A stretch of DNA of 47,258 nt from Meiothermus sp. GTDB lineage: Bacteria > Deinococcota > Deinococci > Deinococcales > Thermaceae. The stretch is from assembly GCF_025056915.1 (NCBI RefSeq), contig NZ_JANWVH010000013.1, positions 1-47,258 on the forward strand, read 5' to 3'. Made by a program: the position numbers and the translations under genes. Under the pieces are notes generated by a model. It was not told the DNA's origin. It saw nothing but the letters and a program-made list of their open reading frames with translations, and made no database searches. Positions 37,802-47,258 of the stretch are shown piece by piece (within the stretch, counting starts at the first letter, position 1; each line of letters begins with the position of its first letter).

Positions 37802-38839
37802 CTACTTCTTGTGTTTGCTCGCCCCACACGACTCGCGAATCACCAAAGGTGTTTCAAGCAATACCTGGCGCTCGGGCGGCGGGTTGCCGCGGATAAGAGC
37901 CGAGAGCATCTCGACGGCAATGCGGCCTTGTTCAACCGGCGAGACCCGAATGGTGGTTAGGGGCGGGTTCATGTAGGGTGCAGTTGGAATGTCGTCGTAA
38001 CCTACCACCGCGATATCCTCTGGAATACGCAGTCCTTGCTCGTGGATGGCAGCCATTGCGCCCATGGCAATGGTATCGTTGCCGGCAAACAGCGCCGTAG
38101 GGTAAGGTTTGCGCCGTAGCAGCTCTTTCATGGCCTGGTAGCCACTGGCTGCGCTGTAGTTGCCATATCGCACCAGGCTCGAGCGGTAGCCTATCCCAGC
38201 CTGCTCCAGGGCTTGCCGGTAGCCCAAGTGGCGATCCCGGGTGGCCACATACGCCTCGGGCGAAAAGGTAATGTGGGCAATGCGGGTATGCCCTAAGGAG
38301 ATCAGGTGCTCGGTGGCCCGCCGACCCGCGCCAATCCCATCGGTAACAACCGAGTACCCCTCCCAGCCGGGAAACCCCAGCAAAACCACGGGATAATTTC
38401 GGCGAATCAGCTCGGGTAGCTGGCGGTCATCTGAGCGAACATTAACCGCAATAAACCCATCTATGTGCTTGCCCCTTACCAGGTCGGTATAAGCATCGGG
38501 ACGCGAGACATCCTCAACTGTTTCCAGCAATACCCGGTATCCATGCAGGTGGCTATGCTGGCTCATACTGAACAGAAGCTGCGGGATGAAGGCATCCACT
38601 TTTAGATGTTCGGCATAGGCCACCACCAGCCCAATCGTCAGGGTGCGTCCACTCACCAGGCTGCGGGCCGCCGCGTTGGGAACGTAGCCCAGCTCTGCAG
38701 CCGCTCGTAGCACTCTCTGCCGGGTCTCCTCACTAATGTTGGCCCCCGGAACGTCGTTAAGGACAAAGGAGACGGTAGTGCGGGAAACCCCGGCCCGTTT
38801 GGCAACCTGTTGACTGGTGACGGGACGATGGTCAGCCAT
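37802..38839 (-). CDS. LacI-family transcriptional regulator of the alpha-galactoside operon
   Basis: DNA-binding repressor. The N-terminal helix-turn-helix and hinge are TSQQVAKRAGVSRTTVSFVL (8-27) and ETRQRVLRAAAELGYVPNAAAR; a periplasmic-binding-protein-like sensor domain fills 60-335 (TIGLVVAYAEHL ... ALFAGNDTIAMGAMAA ... VVGYDDIPTAPYMNPPLTTI). 345 residues. It is the last gene of the operon and also has a TATAAT box (38855-38850, minus) in front of it, so it can be expressed alone. The ligand is probably an alpha-galactoside such as melibiose or raffinose, by context only. It likely binds the tandem sites at 45909-45933. Confidence 0.92.
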   Translation of the reverse strand: MADHRPVTSQQVAKRAGVSRTTVSFVLNDVPGANISEETRQRVLRAAAELGYVPNAAARSLVSGRTLTIGLVVAYAEHLKVDAFIPQLLFSMSQHSHLHGYRVLLETVEDVSRPDAYTDLVRGKHIDGFIAVNVRSDDRQLPELIRRNYPVVLLGFPGWEGYSVVTDGIGAGRRATEHLISLGHTRIAHITFSPEAYVATRDRHLGYRQALEQAGIGYRSSLVRYGNYSAASGYQAMKELLRRKPYPTALFAGNDTIAMGAMAAIHEQGLRIPEDIAVVGYDDIPTAPYMNPPLTTIRVSPVEQGRIAVEMLSALIRGNPPPERQVLLETPLVIRESCGASKHKK

Positions 38840-38865: not shown

Positions 38866-40209
38866 CTAGAAGGCAGCTGCGTAACTGCGCAGGTTGACGG
38901 GAATAAACTCGCCGTGTGCCTCCAGCAGTTCATCTACCAGCTTCCAGATTTGCTCGAGGTCGAGCTCGGCTGCCGTGTGCGGATCCAGCATGGCGGCATG
39001 ATAGAGGTGTTCGCGCTTACCGGTCAGGATGGCCTCTACGGTGAGCTCTTGCACGTTGATATTGGTTCGCATCAAGGCCGCTAGCTGAGGCGGAAGCACC
39101 CCTATTTTGGTGGGCTGAATGCCATTCTTGTCTACCAAGCAGGGCACTTCCACACAGCAGCCCTGGGGCAGGTTATCAATTAGGCCGTGGTTCAGCACAT
39201 TACCATAGACCACCCTGGGCTGGCCGGTCTCGAGGGAGTGGATGATACCCGAGCCATATTCCACGCTGCGCCGAACCTCGAGTGGTGCGCGCTCGCTCAG
39301 AAGCTCCTGACGCTGGGTCTCCCAGCCAGCAATCTGGGCCTCGCACCTGCGAACATACTCGTCCAGGGGAATCCCGTATCGCTCGATCAGGTCGGGGCGA
39401 TCGCGCTTGATGAAGTAGGGCAGGTACTCGGCGTGGTGCTCGCTGCTCTCGGTGACAAAATAGCCCAGCCTTTTGAACATCTCATAGCGCACCCGATCAG
39501 GGAGTTGAACCTCGCCATGGTCGCGGTATGGGGTCTGGCCACTCTCGGCAAAGGTGCGCAAGCGGGGGTAGAGGTCTTGACCCTGGTGCTCGAGCCTCAA
39601 GAAATAGGCCATATGGTTGATGCCCGCAACCAGGTAGTTGACTTCCTCCACCGGCACCCCAATGTCGCGGCAAATTTCACCGGCTGTGTGCTGCACACTA
39701 TGACACAGCCCGATGGAGCGGATGGGGCTGGCTTTCTGCAAGGCCCACATGATCATGGCCATGGGGTTGACATAGTTGAGGTGCAGTACCTCGGGACAGA
39801 GTCGTTCCATGTCCCGGCTCATCTCCAGAAGGACAGGAATGGTTCGTACCGCCCGCATAATGCCACCAATGCCCAAAGTGTCAGCAATGGTCTGGCGCAA
39901 GCCGTATTTCTTGGGAATCTCGAAGTCAATTACTGTGGCGGGCTTATATCCCCCAACCTGAATCATGTTAATGGCATAGTGGGCGCCGTCCAGAGCACGT
40001 TCTCGGTCGGTGGTGACCACTATTCGGGGTTTTGCTGAGAGCGCTTGGGCCACTTTGCGGGCTACGATCTCGGAAGTGGCCAGTCTTTCGGCATCAATGT
40101 CATACAGCACCAGTTCCGACTCGGCAAGCTCGGGAAAAGAGAGGATATCGCCGATCAAGTTCTTGGCAAAAACCGTGCTTCCTGCGCCTATGAAGGTGAT
40201 TTTGGGCAT
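38866..40209 (-). CDS. melA: Alpha-galactosidase, glycoside hydrolase family 4
   Basis: Cytosolic hydrolase using NAD+ and a divalent metal by the GH4 redox mechanism. The dinucleotide loop ITFIGAGSTVFAKNL opens the protein. The family's substrate-telling motif is C169-H170-S171-V172 (GLCHSVQH), the form found in alpha-galactosidases. N148 (NYVNPM) and H199 (GINHMAYF) complete the metal/substrate site. 447 residues, usual. ATG at 40209 with AAGGAG six bases upstream. It follows an unusual membrane protein gene by ten bases and precedes the LacI gene. Confidence 0.94.
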   Translation of the reverse strand: MPKITFIGAGSTVFAKNLIGDILSFPELAESELVLYDIDAERLATSEIVARKVAQALSAKPRIVVTTDRERALDGAHYAINMIQVGGYKPATVIDFEIPKKYGLRQTIADTLGIGGIMRAVRTIPVLLEMSRDMERLCPEVLHLNYVNPMAMIMWALQKASPIRSIGLCHSVQHTAGEICRDIGVPVEEVNYLVAGINHMAYFLRLEHQGQDLYPRLRTFAESGQTPYRDHGEVQLPDRVRYEMFKRLGYFVTESSEHHAEYLPYFIKRDRPDLIERYGIPLDEYVRRCEAQIAGWETQRQELLSERAPLEVRRSVEYGSGIIHSLETGQPRVVYGNVLNHGLIDNLPQGCCVEVPCLVDKNGIQPTKIGVLPPQLAALMRTNINVQELTVEAILTGKREHLYHAAMLDPHTAAELDLEQIWKLVDELLEAHGEFIPVNLRSYAAAF

Positions 40210-40219
40210 AGGATTCTCC

Positions 40220-40954
40220 TTAGCGGGGTTGAATAAGGCGAGCCAGTTGGGTGTGGGCCGCTAACACCAGCAACCCGGTCTCGCCCAAATTCCAAAGGAA
40301 GTGGATGGCCACTCGGGGTAACGTCGTAAGGCCCGGAACGCCGGTGCAGAGGTTGTTCTCTGCCAACCAGCCGTCGCGGCCCAGGATGCCCGGGAGGGCC
40401 TGGGCAACTTGGAAGCCCGAGAGGCCCAGCGCACCGAGTTCAGCTTGGAGTTGCAAGTAGCGTAGTAGCAGGTAGGCGTGCTCGAGGGTGTGCGCCGTAG
40501 TCCAGCCTAAAAGCGCCCAACCCCAGAAACCGCGCAACCCTCGCCGCAGCAAAAAAATCACCATAGACAGCACAAAAACATTCCAAAGGAAGTGCACCCA
40601 TTCAACATTGAGCGAGGAGATGAGCCCTTGGGACAGGATGGGAGGACGATTGAGCAGGTAATACTGCACCATCTGTACGGTGTGCTCTAAAAAGTGAAAA
40701 CCCTGGAGCATCAGCAAAGCGCTTAGCACAAAGGCAGCAGCTCCCAAGCACCTAAAGTCGTCCCACCACTTGAGCCCCACCGGCACGGCCACCACACCCA
40801 AAAAAACCAGCGTCCCGCCCCAGACGGGCAGGCCGGCTCCATATACCCCTACCCCGGCCAGCACCAGTCCCAAAGCCCCCAAAAGCAGCAATAGCTCGCG
40901 GTAGACCCGGAAGCTAAGCAGTCCAGCAAGACTTCTAGGGGGGGTAGGACTCAC
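40220..40954 (-). CDS. Polytopic membrane protein with duplicated HxxEH and HFLWN motifs (unrecognised)
   Basis: Family not recognised. 244 residues, about six membrane helices. Two copies of a motif pair are clear: H87-F-L-E90-H91 then H121-F-L-W-N125, and H155-T-L-E158-H159 then H218-F-L-W-N222. All are in or next to predicted helices, so the protein is an internal duplication that could bind heme or metal within the membrane, or be a membrane enzyme; this is inference. It starts with GTG at 40954, whose GTGA overlaps the stop of the FG-GAP gene, so the two are co-translated. The frame is open 30 codons further upstream inside that gene. melA follows after ten bases. Confidence 0.8.
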   Translation of the reverse strand: MSPTPPRSLAGLLSFRVYRELLLLLGALGLVLAGVGVYGAGLPVWGGTLVFLGVVAVPVGLKWWDDFRCLGAAAFVLSALLMLQGFHFLEHTVQMVQYYLLNRPPILSQGLISSLNVEWVHFLWNVFVLSMVIFLLRRGLRGFWGWALLGWTTAHTLEHAYLLLRYLQLQAELGALGLSGFQVAQALPGILGRDGWLAENNLCTGVPGLTTLPRVAIHFLWNLGETGLLVLAAHTQLARLIQPR

Positions 40955-42585
40955 GGGGTCTCCCTTCGGATCAGGGTCAGCAGTTGGCCGGCCCTTGCCG
41001 CTTGCCAGGAGCGTTTTCCATCGGGCCAGACCACCTCGAGCCACCCCTCCTCCTGGGGTAGGGCAAAATGCAGCCGGGGTGCGTCGCCCGAGAGATAGCC
41101 ACTAGTCGCCGTGACTTGCCGCCACTGCCGCCAGCCATTGCTGTGCAAAATCACCGCGGCCCCTATGGCGCGGGTGTTCTGGCTCTGTGGCCAGCGAAGC
41201 TCGACTTCCAGGGTGGGGTGGCCACAGAGCCGGTTTTCAAAGAGCTGGGCCGGGCTGCTCAGGTTGTTGACCACAATGTCCAGGTCGCCATCGTTGTCCA
41301 GGTCTGCCATGCTCATGCCTCGAGCACTGCGCTTCGAACCCAGTTTCCAGTCCGGCTGATGCTCGAACCGGCCTCTTTGGTTGCGAAAGACCCGGTTTTC
41401 TTCGATCAGCTCGCCACCCGGCAAATAAGGAAACTGCTCGATATCCATCATGCCGTTCACCACATAGAGGTCTTGCCAGCCGTCGCTGTCCAGGTCGCCA
41501 AACTTGGCCGACCAACTCCAACCGGTAGCATCCAGACCAAGCGCATAGGCCATATTGCGAAAGCCCTGGGCCTGCCGAACCTGCAACATGTTCTCGGTTT
41601 TCTGGGGGCCCTGCGTACGGAATTTTTTGTAGCCCCGCTCCAGCAAGGGCATCCAGGTAGCCAGGGTCTTGAGGTCGCGGAAATCCGGTTTCATGTCGGT
41701 AGAAAAAAGCTCGGGCACACCGTCGTTTTGGATATCGCCCAGGGCAAAACCCATGGGGTGCTTGCTAAACTGCCGGAAGGGTTGAAACTGCTGCCAGGTT
41801 CCATCATCCCAGCGCCAGGCCATATCGGGCAGGTCGAAGTCGTTGCCCACAATCAAGTCGCGCTGCCCGTCCAGGTCTGCATCGAAGGCCACCAGCCCCA
41901 GGGCAAATGCCTTGGGGTATAGACGTTGTTCTGTATAGCCCTGTGGGCCTGCTTCATATAAAAACACCCCAGCCCCTCGGCCAAACAAGAATCCGTCGCG
42001 GTTCTCGGCCTCGAGGATCGGATCATACGAGGCGGTGACCAAATCCAACCGACCCCGCCCCAATAGGTCATCCCACAAAAACACGAAAGCCGGATGGCGC
42101 ACCCCTTCCAAACGTTGCTGTACAAAACGCCCATTTTGATTGCGCCAGTAACTGGGATAAGAGTTGTTATGGGTAAAAGTGATGTCCAGCCAGCCATCCG
42201 CATCCACATCTACCAAGGCTACCGCCTTAGTACCTTCTGTGGGTAAAGCCTCCCGTTCAAAGCGGAGTTGACCCTGGTTCCAAAAAACACTGGCCTCGCC
42301 GACCTGGGAAGCCAGCACGATCTCGATGAGGCCATCGTTATTGAGGTCGCCTAGCCCCACCCCTGCGCCATTGCCGTCGAAACCCCGCACCGGCCATGTG
42401 CGGCCCTGGGCAGTGTGTGGCAAATCGTGGGCTTCAAAAGCAGTACCGCACAAACCCTGTTCAAGTTTCACAAAATCTACCGTTATCGCTACCGTGCCAT
42501 CGGAAGGGGCATGCGGTGGGGATGCGCCAGCATCCAAAGACCCTAGAAGGAGGGCTAGGGCTACCTTGGATAGTGCTGCGCGCAT
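40951..42585 (-). CDS. Secreted FG-GAP beta-propeller protein with ASPIC/UnbV domain (CRTAC1-like)
   Basis: Predicted exported protein. A signal peptide, MRAALSKVALALLLGSLDAG, opens it. At least six calcium-loop repeats of the integrin/FG-GAP kind follow: DLNNDG, DVDADG, DADLDG, DIQNDG, DLDSDG, DLDNDGDLD, forming a beta-propeller. The C-terminal ~100 residues (RAIGAAVIL ... VTATSGYLSGDAPRLHFALP ... WLEVVWPDGKRSW) are an ASPIC/UnbV domain. 544 residues from the ATG at 42585; an upstream GTG is possible. Role unknown, perhaps binding a glycan or surface partner. It lies inside the sugar operon, between the binding protein and the membrane protein it overlaps. Confidence 0.9.
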   Translation of the reverse strand: MRAALSKVALALLLGSLDAGASPPHAPSDGTVAITVDFVKLEQGLCGTAFEAHDLPHTAQGRTWPVRGFDGNGAGVGLGDLNNDGLIEIVLASQVGEASVFWNQGQLRFEREALPTEGTKAVALVDVDADGWLDITFTHNNSYPSYWRNQNGRFVQQRLEGVRHPAFVFLWDDLLGRGRLDLVTASYDPILEAENRDGFLFGRGAGVFLYEAGPQGYTEQRLYPKAFALGLVAFDADLDGQRDLIVGNDFDLPDMAWRWDDGTWQQFQPFRQFSKHPMGFALGDIQNDGVPELFSTDMKPDFRDLKTLATWMPLLERGYKKFRTQGPQKTENMLQVRQAQGFRNMAYALGLDATGWSWSAKFGDLDSDGWQDLYVVNGMMDIEQFPYLPGGELIEENRVFRNQRGRFEHQPDWKLGSKRSARGMSMADLDNDGDLDIVVNNLSSPAQLFENRLCGHPTLEVELRWPQSQNTRAIGAAVILHSNGWRQWRQVTATSGYLSGDAPRLHFALPQEEGWLEVVWPDGKRSWQAARAGQLLTLIRRETP

Positions 42586-42645
42586 CACCACACCCCATGC
42601 GGATAAGGCTAGGGGGGAGAAATGCCTCCCCACCCTCCAGGCAAT

Positions 42646-43959
42646 CTAGCGAAAGAGGGCATTCACCTTGGCATTGGCTTCGCGCAGGGCATCCACTGCG
42701 GTGACCTTGCCCAAGAAGATAGAGTCCATCGCAGCTTGCATGATGCTACTGACCTCGGAAGCCTTGTCGGCGATGGGGAACAAGAAAGTGGCTCCAGGGG
42801 TGTTGGCCACAGTTGTAAAGGCACTCACGTCAATGCCTTTGGAGGCATGCGCCTTCAGGGCAGCATCCACCCCGGACTTGATGGCTGGGAAGACCACCCC
42901 AAAGCTCCCCACAATGTTCTGGCAGGCCGGAGAACCCATGAACCTGACCCACCGCCAGGCCTCTTCTTTCTTTTTACTGCCCACCCAGATGTTGTCTGCC
43001 AGACCGTTGAACATGCTCTTGCGTCCCAGCGGCCCTATGGGCAAAGGGGCCCAACCGTATTCAAACTTGGTGTTGTCGCGGAAGTAGGTGATCATCCAAG
43101 AGCCCTGGGGCATCATGGCTGCTTTCCCCGAGGTAAAAAGCGGTTCGACACCACCGCTGGTGGGCAGATCCTTGAAGGGCACAGCAATACCTCGCTTCAG
43201 CCCGAGGTCGGCTAGCCACTGGATGGTCTCGGCCAGCTTGGGGCTATCGTAGTAGTACTTGCGCGACCAGGGACCATCGTTGAACTTGAAACCATTGGCA
43301 ACTGCCAGCCAGCTCCACTCGGTCTGACCGTACCCTCCCCCATTGGGGCTAACCCAGCCGTACTGCACCACGTTTTTCGGGTCGAAGCGAGGGCTCAAGG
43401 CATTGTTGCCGTTCTTATCTTTGGTTAGACGGGCCAGAATCTGACCGAAGGTGCCACCGTCCTTGGGATTCCAAGTCCAGTTCTTGATTTGCGCTTCTGT
43501 AACCCCCGCCTCTCTCAACATTTTCTTGTTGTAGACAATGGCAACGGTGTCCCAATCCTTGGGCAAACCATACTGCTTACCGTCTTTTCCCCATAAATCA
43601 TAGAGGCCAGGATAGTAGATTTTGGTGTCCAGATTATCCCGCTTGATGTAAGGAGTTAGGTCAACAATCTGGTTGTTGAGCGCAAACTCAGGGTACTTGG
43701 CCAGATGGCTGGTAAAGACATCGGGAGCAGTACCCGCAACGAAGCCCGTGGTGATGCTGGTCCAGTAGTCATCCCAGCCTTTTTGCTCAATCTTTACACG
43801 GATGTTGGGGTTTTGTTTGTTGAACTCGGCTGCACAAGCTTCATACGCGGGCTTCTGGTTGGCATCCCACAACCAGTAAGAGACCTCGGTCTGGGCTAGG
43901 GCGGTACCCAGTAAACCTGAAATGGCCAGCATCCCTACTTTTTGAGCCAGTTGTTGCAT
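42646..43959 (-). CDS. ABC sugar transporter substrate-binding protein (CUT1)
   Basis: Extracellular binding protein for the operon's sugar, probably an alpha-galactoside. Residues 1-22 are a signal peptide (LAISGLLGTALAQ) without a lipobox cysteine, so the mature protein may be free or held by other means. The fold signature of family 1 binding proteins is seen in APDVFTSHLAKYPEFA, GLPKDWDTVAIVYNKKML and GKAAMMPQGSWMITYF. 437 residues. ATG at 43959 with a strong GGAGGAG five bases upstream, better than other sites in the operon, fitting the need for excess binding protein. Confidence 0.93.
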   Translation of the reverse strand: MQQLAQKVGMLAISGLLGTALAQTEVSYWLWDANQKPAYEACAAEFNKQNPNIRVKIEQKGWDDYWTSITTGFVAGTAPDVFTSHLAKYPEFALNNQIVDLTPYIKRDNLDTKIYYPGLYDLWGKDGKQYGLPKDWDTVAIVYNKKMLREAGVTEAQIKNWTWNPKDGGTFGQILARLTKDKNGNNALSPRFDPKNVVQYGWVSPNGGGYGQTEWSWLAVANGFKFNDGPWSRKYYYDSPKLAETIQWLADLGLKRGIAVPFKDLPTSGGVEPLFTSGKAAMMPQGSWMITYFRDNTKFEYGWAPLPIGPLGRKSMFNGLADNIWVGSKKKEEAWRWVRFMGSPACQNIVGSFGVVFPAIKSGVDAALKAHASKGIDVSAFTTVANTPGATFLFPIADKASEVSSIMQAAMDSIFLGKVTAVDALREANAKVNALFR

Positions 43960-44035: not shown

Positions 44036-44944
44036 TCATTTCACGCCACTGAATTGCAGCGACTCCACCACCTGACGCCCCAGCACCAAGAGCAGGATGA
44101 TCACTGGAATGATTGCAAGGGACGTTGCTGCCATAATTCCGGTCCAGTCCGCACCACCCTGGGGTGACTGCGATTGAAAGGCCTTGAGGGCCACCGTAAT
44201 TACCTGCCATTCATCTCCCCTGGCCACGATGTAGGGCCAGAAGAACTCGTTCCAGGTAGCAATAGCGGTGAGGATGCTCAGGGTGGCAATAGGGGTTTTG
44301 CTAATAGGCAGCACCAGCCGCCAGAAGATGTAAAAAGGCGAAGCCCCATCCAGGTAGGCGGCCTCCTCGAGCTCTTTGGGCATCGAAAGGAAAAACTGCC
44401 GCAGGAAGAACACCGCAAATGGCGCCATCAGGACATAAGGCGCTACCATTCCCTGGAATGTGTTGAGCCAGCCCAGATCGCGCATAAGGATGAAATTGGG
44501 TATGAACAACACCACGCCCGGGATCATGGTGGCCGACAGAAAAAGGAAGAAGATCAGGTCTCGGCCAGGAAACTTCAGACGTGCAAAGGCATAGGCCGCC
44601 AGGGCGCTGAAGAAGGTCTGGAATATCACCACACAAGCCGTAAAGAGCAGAGAGTTGCGCAGTGCGTGCGCGAAGTTGATTACCGCTCCAGAGCCTCCTG
44701 CCGCCTGGTTTTGCTCGAGGCTCAAGAAACCAAGCACGCGCTCAAAATTAATCAGGGTCGGCGTGCTGGGAAAAAGCCTGGTGGACTCAGCAAAAAGATC
44801 CTTGGCGGGGGTAATGGCCGTCTTGAGTACTACCCACAATGGAAACAGGGTGACAAAGATCATTATCACCAACAGCAACCACGACAGCGCGAGCCCCCAA
44901 GAAAATCTGCGCACTTCTCTGGTAGAGGAAAAAGTAGGTTCCAT
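44036..44944 (-). CDS. ABC sugar permease, MalG type
   Basis: Second inner-membrane subunit of the CUT1 transporter. About six helices in 302 residues. The ATPase-docking EAA loop is EELEEAAYLDGASPFYIFWR-like (ELEEAAYLDGASPFYIFW, then LVLPISKTPIAT) in the second half. It begins nine bases after the MalF-type gene and is followed after 76 bases by the binding protein gene. No ATPase gene is in the operon, so a shared MalK/MsmK-type ATPase encoded elsewhere must power it. Confidence 0.93.
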   Translation of the reverse strand: MEPTFSSTREVRRFSWGLALSWLLLVIMIFVTLFPLWVVLKTAITPAKDLFAESTRLFPSTPTLINFERVLGFLSLEQNQAAGGSGAVINFAHALRNSLLFTACVVIFQTFFSALAAYAFARLKFPGRDLIFFLFLSATMIPGVVLFIPNFILMRDLGWLNTFQGMVAPYVLMAPFAVFFLRQFFLSMPKELEEAAYLDGASPFYIFWRLVLPISKTPIATLSILTAIATWNEFFWPYIVARGDEWQVITVALKAFQSQSPQGGADWTGIMAATSLAIIPVIILLLVLGRQVVESLQFSGVK

Positions 44945-44953
44945 AGCGCACCT

Positions 44954-45883
44954 CTATCCCAGGTCGGACTGATTGGCCCGCAACAGGCGCATCTGCACTA
45001 GGGTGAACGCAATCAGGATCAAGAACAACACCACCGACATGGCCGACGCATAGCCCATTCGCAGGAAATTAAAGGCATTTTCGGAGATATACCAGACAAT
45101 GACTCGAGTGGCATCCACCGGGCCCCCACCTGTGGTTACTGCAATCATGTCGTAGACTTGAAATGAGCCAATAACGCTGGTAACCAACACAAAAGCCATT
45201 ACCGGTCGCAGTAGCGGCAGGGTGATGTGCCAGAAGGTATGCCATTCGCTCGAGCCATCAATTGAAGCGGCTTCATAGAGTGAGCGGGGAATGGACTGCA
45301 AGCCTGCATAAAAAAGCAAGGCCGTAAGACCCATGTGTTTCCAGATGTTTACAGCAGCCACCGAAGCCAGGGCCTGATCGGGCGAGCCAAAAAAGGGTTG
45401 CCTCTCAACGCCCAGCCCCTGTATGAAGGCGTTGATATATCCCAACTGGGGGTTTGTCAGCCAAACAAAAATCATGCCTGCCACAATGCTCGAGAGCAGG
45501 TACGGCAGAATAATCACTGCCCGTAGCCACAGTGCCCGCACCACCCGATCCATCAGTACCGCTAGAAAGAGTCCCAACGCCGTTTGGATAGGAATGTTGT
45601 ACAGCACGTAGAGTCCGGTAACCCGCAAAGAGTGCCAGAAGTTTTCATCGGCAATCAATCTGCCGTAGTTTTCCAGCCCTACTCCTTTGGGCGGACGCAA
45701 CAAGTTCCAGTCGGTAAAGCTAATCTCCACAGCACGGAACACGGGAATAAGGTAGAACAGCACGAATCCAATCAGAGCGGGTAGTATGAACAAGAAACCC
45801 GTTAGGGCCTCTCGACTCAGGGTGCGACCCCGCCACCCCCTTGGCAAAGTATGAACTGCCTCTTTCGGGTCATCTGACGTCAT
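44954..45883 (-). CDS. ABC sugar permease, MalF type
   Basis: First inner-membrane subunit of the CUT1 transporter and first gene of the operon. About six helices in 309 residues; the N-terminus is cytosolic. The EAA loop is SLYEAASIDGSSEWHTFWHI followed by TLPLLRPVM. ATG at 45883 with AGGGGG about six bases upstream. The promoter and two operator-like 12-mers lie 26-83 bases upstream. It works with the MalG-type subunit and binding protein that follow. Confidence 0.93.
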   Translation of the reverse strand: MTSDDPKEAVHTLPRGWRGRTLSREALTGFLFILPALIGFVLFYLIPVFRAVEISFTDWNLLRPPKGVGLENYGRLIADENFWHSLRVTGLYVLYNIPIQTALGLFLAVLMDRVVRALWLRAVIILPYLLSSIVAGMIFVWLTNPQLGYINAFIQGLGVERQPFFGSPDQALASVAAVNIWKHMGLTALLFYAGLQSIPRSLYEAASIDGSSEWHTFWHITLPLLRPVMAFVLVTSVIGSFQVYDMIAVTTGGGPVDATRVIVWYISENAFNFLRMGYASAMSVVLFLILIAFTLVQMRLLRANQSDLG

Positions 45884-45908: not shown

Positions 45909-45933
45909 TAACTCGTGTTACTAACTCGTGTTA
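45909..45933. promoter_or_regulatory. Tandem operator sites of the alpha-galactoside operon
   Basis: TAACTCGTGTTA occurs twice (45909-45920 and 45922-45933), one base apart. Each is a near-palindrome centred on CG, as LacI-family sites usually are. They cover the predicted start and early leader. An adjoining TTAGT-TAC-ACTAA inverted repeat (45931-45943) covers the -10 box, and ACAGT-TTC-ACTGT (45945-45957) fills the spacer. Confidence 0.7.
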
Positions 45934-45936
45934 GTT

Positions 45937-46151: not shown

Positions 46152-47258
46152 TTACCCATCCCTGTACCAGATGCGATAAACTCGCCCTCCCTTAGCATCC
46201 GATACATACATCGCCCCATCCAAGCCAATCACCAGCCCCACCGGGCGGCCCCAGGCATCGCGGCACATCTGGCCTGTCTCCCGCCAACCGGTGGCAAACA
46301 CTTCCGAGCGAACCGGCAAATCGTTCTGGATCACGAAGCGTTCAATTTTGCAGTCGCGGTACTTGGCCGGGTTCTGCACCCCCAGCGAACCGTGGTAGGC
46401 GATGTAGAGACTGTTGCGGTACTCGAGCGGAAAGTGGCTCTTCGTACCCCAGGTCATGCCCAGCGGGGCCGAGTGGGCCGGGGCCGTAAACAGCGCGGGA
46501 ACCGCCTTGCGGCAGTCGAAGCCCTCGGTGCGGGGGTCGGGCACCTCGCTACGCTCGGCCTTCAGGTTCAGGCCCAGGCCCGGCGTGTAGCAGTAGGGCC
46601 AGCCGTGAAAACCCCCCGGCTCTACCGCCACAATCACCTCTTCGGGGGGCAGGTCGTCGCCCAGGTGGTCGGTGCCGTTGTGGGTGGCCCAGAGCGAGCC
46701 TCGAGGAGTCCAGGTAAAGTCCACGCTGTTCTTGAGCCCTTCGGCCCAGACCGTCCGGCGGCGGGGGTCAGGGTCGCGCACAAAGGGGTTGTCGTGCGGA
46801 ACGCTGCCGTCGGGGTTATAGCGCAAAATGGCCGCCCGGCGGGGGTCGCGCTCGGGGCCAAAGTTGGTCTCGGAGCCCACCGACACATACAGCTTGCCAT
46901 CCGGCCCGAAATGCAGGGTGCGGGTGAAGTGCCCGGAAGGCCCCGGAATCTCGGCGATGACCGTTTCACGCAGCCAGACGTTGCCCCTCGGCTGCAAGCG
47001 AATGACTGCGTTGCTGACCGCCACGTAAAGCCAGCCCCGGTGCCATTCCAGGCCGTGCGGAAGCTCGAGGCCCCCCACCAGCACCTCGACCCTATCGGCC
47101 CGGCCATCGCGGTTGCGGTCGGGCAGGCGCACCACCTGGCCCCCGTACATCAGGGTCAGGTAGAGGTGTCCATCCGGCCCCACCGTCATCATGCGGGGGG
47201 CCCCCTCAAAGCCTCCAGCAAACACCTGAATGGCAAACCCGGGGGGTAGCCGGATGCG
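46152..47258 (-). CDS. PQQ-type glucose/sorbosone dehydrogenase (5' end outside the window)
   Basis: Soluble aldose sugar dehydrogenase of the six-bladed beta-propeller type, which oxidises sugars with PQQ as cofactor, usually outside the cytosol. Visible segments: LPPGFAIQVFAGG at the window edge (the usual start of the mature domain), TVGPDGHLYLT, SGHFTRTLHFGPDGKLYVSVGS, AEGLKNSVDFTW, PGGFHGWPYCYTPG and GLDGAMYVSDAKGGRVYRI. The frame runs off the window, so the N-terminus, probably with a signal peptide, is missing. TAA stop at 46152. It may feed on the same sugars as the operon next to it, but is on a separate transcript. Confidence 0.88.
   Translation of the reverse strand, partial: RIRLPPGFAIQVFAGGFEGAPRMMTVGPDGHLYLTLMYGGQVVRLPDRNRDGRADRVEVLVGGLELPHGLEWHRGWLYVAVSNAVIRLQPRGNVWLRETVIAEIPGPSGHFTRTLHFGPDGKLYVSVGSETNFGPERDPRRAAILRYNPDGSVPHDNPFVRDPDPRRRTVWAEGLKNSVDFTWTPRGSLWATHNGTDHLGDDLPPEEVIVAVEPGGFHGWPYCYTPGLGLNLKAERSEVPDPRTEGFDCRKAVPALFTAPAHSAPLGMTWGTKSHFPLEYRNSLYIAYHGSLGVQNPAKYRDCKIERFVIQNDLPVRSEVFATGWRETGQMCRDAWGRPVGLVIGLDGAMYVSDAKGGRVYRIWYRDG

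Follow-up and report, generated by a model that had tools for sequence, protein, structure and literature searches.

The alpha-galactoside operon of a Meiothermus species includes two adjacent genes, one encoding a probably secreted FG-GAP/ASPIC propeller and the other a membrane protein of an unnamed family, and our tentative reading is that the latter is an outward-facing membrane metalloprotein that acts with a secreted partner, here the propeller, before or at sugar uptake. The operon lies in a stretch of 47,258 nucleotides (contig NZ_JANWVH010000013.1 of assembly GCF_025056915.1; hereafter, the window), and its features are listed in Table 1. The pair is more than a chance arrangement: both genes are under purifying selection, their synteny is conserved in 10 genomes, and one half of the membrane protein aligns with the other. 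Compared with the initial annotation of this DNA, the new observations are that the pair is optional in the operon, that it goes with the importer genes, and that distant relatives of the membrane protein occur beside ASPIC genes of the enediyne type.

All genes of the operon are transcribed from the minus strand, in the order permease, permease, binding protein, propeller, membrane protein, melA, lacI. The combination of a glycoside hydrolase family 4 (GH4) alpha-galactosidase, a sugar ATP-binding cassette (ABC) importer and a LacI regulator identifies a MelA-type alpha-galactoside operon (NF011657 and Pfam matches; the substrate class is predicted from sequence). The window shares the permeases, the binding protein, MelA and the regulator with ordinary ABC-type alpha-galactoside operons but differs from them by the two-gene cassette added between the binding protein and melA. 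The binding-protein gene ends 60 base pairs (bp) before the propeller ATG, and the stop codon of the membrane protein is separated by 10 bp from the melA start. The initial annotation had placed both genes in this slot, overlapping as GTGA, and had described them as an FG-GAP/ASPIC protein and an unrecognised membrane protein that form a two-part unit; all these claims agree with the data presented here.

A search of 111 Deinococcota genomes for the membrane protein produced matches in 11, one of which (G025) belongs to a distant subfamily and 10 of which, including that of the window, are close relatives. A propeller sequence lies directly upstream in all 10 genomes with a close relative; it is intact in 8, cut by a contig edge in one and reduced to a fused relic in one. 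The cut copy is in locus L017 (G005), where the contig ends ~150 bases upstream of the membrane protein and an ASPIC-like C-terminus is readable by eye. The relic (L021:7780-8778, G099) is a frame that fuses the first part of the propeller with the final part of the membrane protein; apart from this, the operon is complete. Downstream of the pair, melA and then a LacI gene are found in 10/10 genomes, and upstream, the binding-protein gene is present in each of the 9 pair loci with a contig reaching that far (the L019 contig ends inside this gene, so that the permeases are out of view). The pair occupies the same slot in these 10 genomes, which represent three families. The 4-base overlap of the two genes is shared by the window, L013, L014 and L019, and elsewhere the junction is a one-base overlap (L016) or a two-base gap (L015), with an uncertain membrane-protein start in L018 and L020. 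In L016 (L016:4418-5334, G006), the second permease gene is apparently split into two frames, and the rest of the operon and the pair are intact. Among the matches listed from the open-licence PubMed Central (PMC) literature, no paper deals with a combination of an ASPIC protein and this kind of membrane protein.

The first permease gene is preceded by two operator-like palindromes of the LacI type, arranged in tandem (Table 1). The window contains a single occurrence of the pattern GTAACNNNNGTTA, versus 0.04 expected. Of the 13 loci with the first permease gene in reach, 10 carry at least one such site, allowing two or fewer mismatches, no more than 400 bases 5' of this gene, and 8 carry the operator pair with the 13-bp spacing; no such site precedes the gene in L018, L020 and L046, and in L018 one is found at another position. 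A promoter scan yielded 3 sites versus 3.9 in shuffled sequences, that is, no excess, and a terminator scan yielded 16 versus 9.7, some of them within genes, those of the pair included, and none in either gap flanking the pair. Because the operator-like sites of the window are confined to the operon head and no terminator was found in the flanking gaps, the pair is most likely under the LacI control of the operon, in line with the suggestion of the initial annotation that it is regulated with alpha-galactoside use.

The propeller matches the FG-GAP repeats (PF13517, E 1.7e-33, 115.4 bits against a cut-off of 26.9) and ASPIC/UnbV (PF07593, E 1.1e-12, 48.1 bits against a cut-off of 23.4), with the repeats followed by the ASPIC domain as in the CRTAC1/UnbV family, and its ASPIC end (residues 435-546) aligns with cartilage acidic protein 1 (9etn; phmmer E 1.9e-12). 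What distinguishes it from the CRTAC1/UnbV propellers with which it shares this architecture is that it is encoded in a bacterial sugar operon, by a gene that overlaps the one for a membrane partner. The N-terminus, read by eye, is hydrophobic and signal-like from the ATG at 42585; a second in-frame candidate start, a GTG, is located further up at 42633. The Pfam scan recognised no redox domain in the propeller, and the AlphaFold2 model from a two-sequence input (mean predicted local distance difference test score, pLDDT, 35.3) was too poor for use. The protein is the sole ASPIC match in its own genome (the assembly is 94% complete), and relatives at E 1e-10 or better are encoded in 21 of the 111 Deinococcota genomes. 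Close relatives that lack the membrane protein (L028, L029, L030) form a separate clade with support 99/99. In L029 and L030, a PIG-L-like deacetylase gene, identified by eye, adjoins the propeller relative.

Searches of Pfam, NCBIfam, PHROGs and PADLOC yielded nothing significant for the membrane protein, and the best match of its profile to PDB sequences (E 0.81) is unrelated. Weak lines in the Pfam scans (Ldh_2 0.14, DUF6909 0.29, Pre_tape_measure 0.12, STN1_2 0.26) were taken as chance. Its hallmark is a duplicated pair of motifs, HxxEH and HFLWN. All four motifs are where the initial annotation had located them, and the one correction is that N125 of the first HFLWN varies in distant relatives, in contrast to N222 of the second, which is kept. 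The invariant residues in an alignment of 10 sequences include H87, E90, H91, Q94, Q97, E118, H121, H155, E158, H159, P213, R214, H218 and N222. In a 14-sequence alignment that spans Deinococcota, Streptomyces and Geminocystis (a Nonomuraea protein was left out), 15 motif positions are invariant, including six His, three Glu and two Gln. The pattern H-E-H-Q-Q, G, E-H, H-E-H, P-R, H, N is invariant in all 14 sequences and defines what we denote here the HxxEH four-helix core family, an unnamed family delineated in this analysis. The two halves of the protein align in hhalign with E 1.5e-6, a value to be read with care given that these are halves of the same proteins. HxxEH is also how the motif of M16 metallopeptidases is spelled and, with a probably secreted protein encoded next door, an intramembrane or membrane-bound M16-like metallopeptidase that processes the propeller could be envisaged; the initial annotation had noted HxxEH as a metal-binding pattern of some peptidases. 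This is highly improbable, and we rejected it: no peptidase profile in Pfam or NCBIfam matches, the motif is duplicated within predicted membrane helices, and papers that combine 'HxxEH' with 'transmembrane' are, judging by title among the matches listed, mostly on known peptidases.

The family core consists of ~155 amino acids (aa) in four helices, which the type found in the window extends by a loop and by further helices at the N-terminus. Would-be inside segments contain on average 1.7-2.2 Lys/Arg, compared with 0.1-0.8 in two of the three would-be outside segments; the third, a 48-residue loop before the last helix, contains 2.1 Lys/Arg but 3.0 Asp/Glu. One relative (L074:8549-9892, minus strand, genome G083) carries a fused C-terminal cyclic nucleotide monophosphate (cNMP)-binding domain (PF00027, E 2.6e-25). 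The positive-inside pattern and this domain together suggest that the termini are cytoplasmic and that the motif face points outward. The invariant His and Glu would accordingly be on the propeller's side of the membrane, as expected from the surface placement put forward in the initial annotation.

Whole-genome searches for the family covered the 111 Deinococcota genomes, and other phyla were covered through plasmids, phages and viral contigs. A contig scan seeded with the membrane protein of the window retrieved one locus (L002, the same match as L015 and counted once), viral contigs contained no relative, phages contained none with the Geminocystis relative as the only query, and plasmids gave no match with the protein of the window, of L020 or of L074. 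The distant member L022 as the query detected relatives on 14 plasmid records: 12 from Streptomyces, one from Nonomuraea and one from a cyanobacterium, Geminocystis. In the latter plasmid (NZ_AP014826.1), the family member of 154 aa (L026:5995-6459) is surrounded by genes annotated as hypothetical. A profile of nine pair members picks up the proteins of Streptomyces, Nonomuraea and Geminocystis with E 3e-8 to 7e-5, with the first unassigned frame at E 2, in a set that included 3,154 frames from the examined loci. The reverse profile recovers the nine pair members at E 4e-13 to 1.5e-3 (next frame, 0.18), and the profile-profile comparison of pair members with distant relatives yields E 2.4e-12.

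A search of Deinococcota with the wide alignment matched 14 of the 111 genomes and delineated a distant subfamily that consists of L022, L073, L075, L076, L077, L078 and the longer L074. A protein that looks secreted by eye is encoded directly upstream in L075, L076 and L077, directly downstream in L078, and ~1 kb upstream in L022, where it is 48% identical to that of L077; none of these neighbours has a Pfam match. EamA transporter genes are located downstream in L022, L075 and L076, and a regulator like the BTAD protein of L022 is found nearby in L073, L075, L076 and L077. A second recurring cluster, comprising the secreted-looking protein, the HxxEH four-helix protein, EamA and the BTAD/TPR regulator, can be discerned in L022 (L022:6098-12673), L075, L076 and L077, not all genes being seen at each locus. 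Most of the subfamilies of the membrane protein have an extracytoplasmic-looking neighbour, signal-bearing or membrane-anchored. This recurrence beside other neighbours, along with the fusion to a cNMP-binding domain, speaks against a non-enzymatic arrangement in which the membrane protein would anchor, mature or help export the propeller, and the propeller would bind sugar at the surface as a scaffold or sensor, boosting alpha-galactoside capture; moreover, six invariant His and three invariant Glu would be superfluous for an anchor. We consider such an arrangement somewhat unlikely, its appeal being that the two genes overlap, that the pair is optional and tied to the importer, and that L028, L029 and L030 encode propellers of this family but not the membrane protein.

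The 12 Streptomyces records with a relative represent mainly one lineage. In 9 of the 10 Streptomyces loci examined, an ASPIC (CRTAC1) gene lies four genes from the divergently transcribed relative and adjoins genes for DUF1702, an RnfD-like/enediyne biosynthesis protein (UnbU) and a type I polyketide synthase (PKS); the tenth, L049, has no ASPIC gene within 9 kb and one ~11 kb off on the same record. Plasmid SGLP1 of the C-1027 producer is a case in point, with its relative, WP_010056327.1, divergent from the enediyne-type genes and followed by a small membrane-anchored-looking protein. Such a protein comes after the relative in four sequence-read Streptomyces loci and in Nonomuraea, and a short hypothetical gene takes this place in the other Streptomyces regions. 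The likeness to the window, an ASPIC gene with a membrane-protein relative nearby, comes with differences: the relative in the enediyne-type clusters is divergently transcribed, consists of the four-helix core only and has its own small neighbour, whereas the operon of the window includes no PKS, DUF1702 or RnfD-like gene. The C-1027 ASPIC protein matches 49 plasmid records at E 1e-60 (46 from Streptomyces), among them all 12 Streptomyces records with the relative, so that most of such records lack it. The ASPIC/UnbV gene is presumably one of the five genes reported to be shared by enediyne clusters (among E3/E4/E5), which fits the C-1027 gene order. These five are named as E3/E4/E5/E/E10 in PMC5181780, and PMC2657911 states that sgcE1 encodes an HxlR-like regulator. 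The helix-turn-helix gene that adjoins the C-1027 relative may be sgcE1.

That the ASPIC gene in the enediyne-type clusters also adjoins a gene annotated as RnfD-like is one of the observations compatible with a b-type (di)heme or quinone-linked electron-transfer membrane protein that would serve a secreted partner, in the way the membrane heme protein MsrQ serves the periplasmic enzyme MsrP. Each of the four core helices bears an invariant His, and the membrane protein and an extracytoplasmic-looking neighbour recur together. The analogy with MsrPQ is one of function, a His-bearing membrane protein with an extracytoplasmic partner, and the Pfam and NCBIfam scans reveal no sequence relation. 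We regard this alternative as unlikely: heme ligands do not usually show the i, i+3, i+4 spacing of HxxEH together with invariant Glu and Gln, no curated profile of a heme-protein or ferric-reductase-like membrane family in Pfam or NCBIfam matches, and the propeller has no recognised redox domain.

Under the reading that we tentatively prefer, an outward-facing metalloprotein working with a secreted partner, the membrane protein would have six helices, the last four being two copies of a two-helix unit. On the outward face of the membrane, the invariant His and Glu (six and three residues, respectively) would come together and bind metal, the most likely arrangement being a non-heme site with two metals. 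The secreted propeller would dock on this face and bind a galactoside or a galactose-bearing surface molecule, which the metal site would oxidise or otherwise process, or with which it would exchange electrons in either direction, and the processed molecule would then become usable by the ABC importer and MelA. The pair would, in this case, be an accessory to uptake, outside the core pathway. We infer metal binding by the six His and three Glu, the number of metals and the redox chemistry from the residue make-up; a redox role is possible, and so is heme. In the searched data, the protein belongs to no known family, the pair co-occurs and the histidines are conserved, as the proposal of the initial annotation requires.

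Several observations weigh against this reading. Hydropathy is weak for helices 4 to 6. The AlphaFold2 model of the 244-aa protein (two-sequence input) is poor, with a mean pLDDT of 57.7, and a Foldseek search with it gives no fold match (best E 1.2), so that it lends no support to the histidines meeting. No secreted neighbour was recognised beside the Geminocystis relative, L073 or L074. Against a general link with ASPIC, no ASPIC gene was found in the examined Nonomuraea, Geminocystis and distant Deinococcota stretches, except for L078, which encodes a protein with two ASPIC-like matches ~8 kb from the relative. Further, complete operons without the pair are present in five loci (L032, L033, L038, L039 and L046), where the binding protein adjoins melA, and a tree-aware sign test of the pair-importer association is borderline (median p 0.0625, range 0.03-0.125).

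Given these five operons and the one with the relic, the pair is not needed for alpha-galactoside use; it is an optional component of the operon. A melA match at E 1e-80 was detected in 39 of the 111 genomes, and melA loci were examined in 25 of these besides the window, the other 13 being without a membrane-protein match. The importer could not be judged in L035, a locus without the pair at a contig start, or in L017, a pair locus at a contig end, which leaves 24 loci, window included. All 9 loci with the pair have the importer next to melA; of those without the pair, 5 have it there and 10 do not (Fisher p 0.002, kinship ignored). Presence of the pair switches 7 times on the MelA tree, with no stronger clustering than that of shuffled labels (112 of 500 shuffles were as low), and the membrane-protein and propeller trees leave several forks open. 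The ranking by identity to the window is largely the same for the membrane protein as for MelA, which suggests that the pair is old and was repeatedly lost; a recent gain in single lineages is disfavoured. Against one close relative, G037, the membrane protein has a ratio of nonsynonymous to synonymous substitution rates of 0.09 and the propeller one of 0.13, compared with the lower values of 0.01-0.07 for the other five operon genes. Such purifying selection on both genes, their location in the same slot in 10 genomes of three families and the fact that, among the loci that could be judged, they never occur away from importer genes make it very unlikely that they are passengers without a role in sugar use, even with the many melA loci that lack the pair and the fused relic in L021.

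Table 1. Features of the alpha-galactoside operon in the window and of related loci
Feature	Position	Strand	Evidence or remark
Operator-like palindromes of the LacI type in tandem, CTAACACGAGTTAG and TAACACGAGTTA, with 13-bp spacing	45909..45934	-	upstream of first permease
Sugar ABC transporter permease (UgpA/MalF-like), first gene of the operon	44954..45883	-	PF00528; NCBIfam UgpA, MalF similarity below cut-offs
Sugar ABC transporter permease (UgpE/MalG-like)	44036..44944	-	PF00528; NCBIfam UgpE, MalG similarity below cut-offs
Sugar ABC transporter substrate-binding protein	42646..43959	-	PF01547
FG-GAP/ASPIC propeller of the CRTAC1/UnbV type (544 aa, counted from ATG 42585), probably secreted	40951..42585	-	PF13517, PF07593; hydrophobic N-terminus by eye
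GTGA overlap, propeller stop and membrane-protein start	40951..40954	-	sequence
Membrane protein, 244 aa, GTG start, duplicated HxxEH/HFxWN unit	40220..40954	-	sequence; conserved residues; internal duplication
First HxxEH motif, H87FLEH91 (H87, E90, H91)	40682..40696	-	invariant in 10- and 14-sequence alignments
First HFLWN, H121-N125, E118 just before	40580..40594	-	E118, H121 invariant; N125 not
Second HxxEH motif, H155TLEH159 (H155, E158, H159)	40478..40492	-	invariant in both alignments
Second HFLWN, H218-N222, P213-R214 just before	40289..40303	-	H218, N222, P213, R214 invariant
GH4 alpha-galactosidase, MelA type	38866..40209	-	NCBIfam NF011657, 680.5 bits vs cut-off 486; PF02056, PF11975
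LacI-family regulator	37802..38839	-	PF00356, PF13377
Propeller relatives without membrane protein	L028:8446-10158, L029:2029-3645, L030:6999-8636		
C-1027 plasmid SGLP1 relative, WP_010056327.1, hypothetical protein	L047:11968-12531 (NZ_CP013739.1)		beside DUF1702/ASPIC/RnfD-like/PKS genes

On the 5' side of the operon, positions 46152-47258 (minus strand) encode a glucose/sorbosone dehydrogenase-like protein (PF07995) that is truncated by the end of the window.

A broader generalization, which we regard as rather doubtful, would be that the HxxEH four-helix proteins constitute a new family of membrane-embedded, outward-facing and probably two-metal enzymes, built on a duplicated two-helix unit and equipped with interchangeable extracytoplasmic partners (the ASPIC propeller, other secreted domains or a small anchored domain), that serve chemistries as different as the uptake of alpha-galactosides in Deinococcota and the synthesis or handling of enediynes in Streptomyces. 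If this is true, a membrane redox or metal site would have an ASPIC protein as its partner in the sugar operon and in the enediyne clusters alike. Because the operon is small, has a clear inducer class and exists in natural versions with and without the pair, the role of the bacterial ASPIC proteins and of the unnamed membrane family would become testable, given a cultivable carrier.

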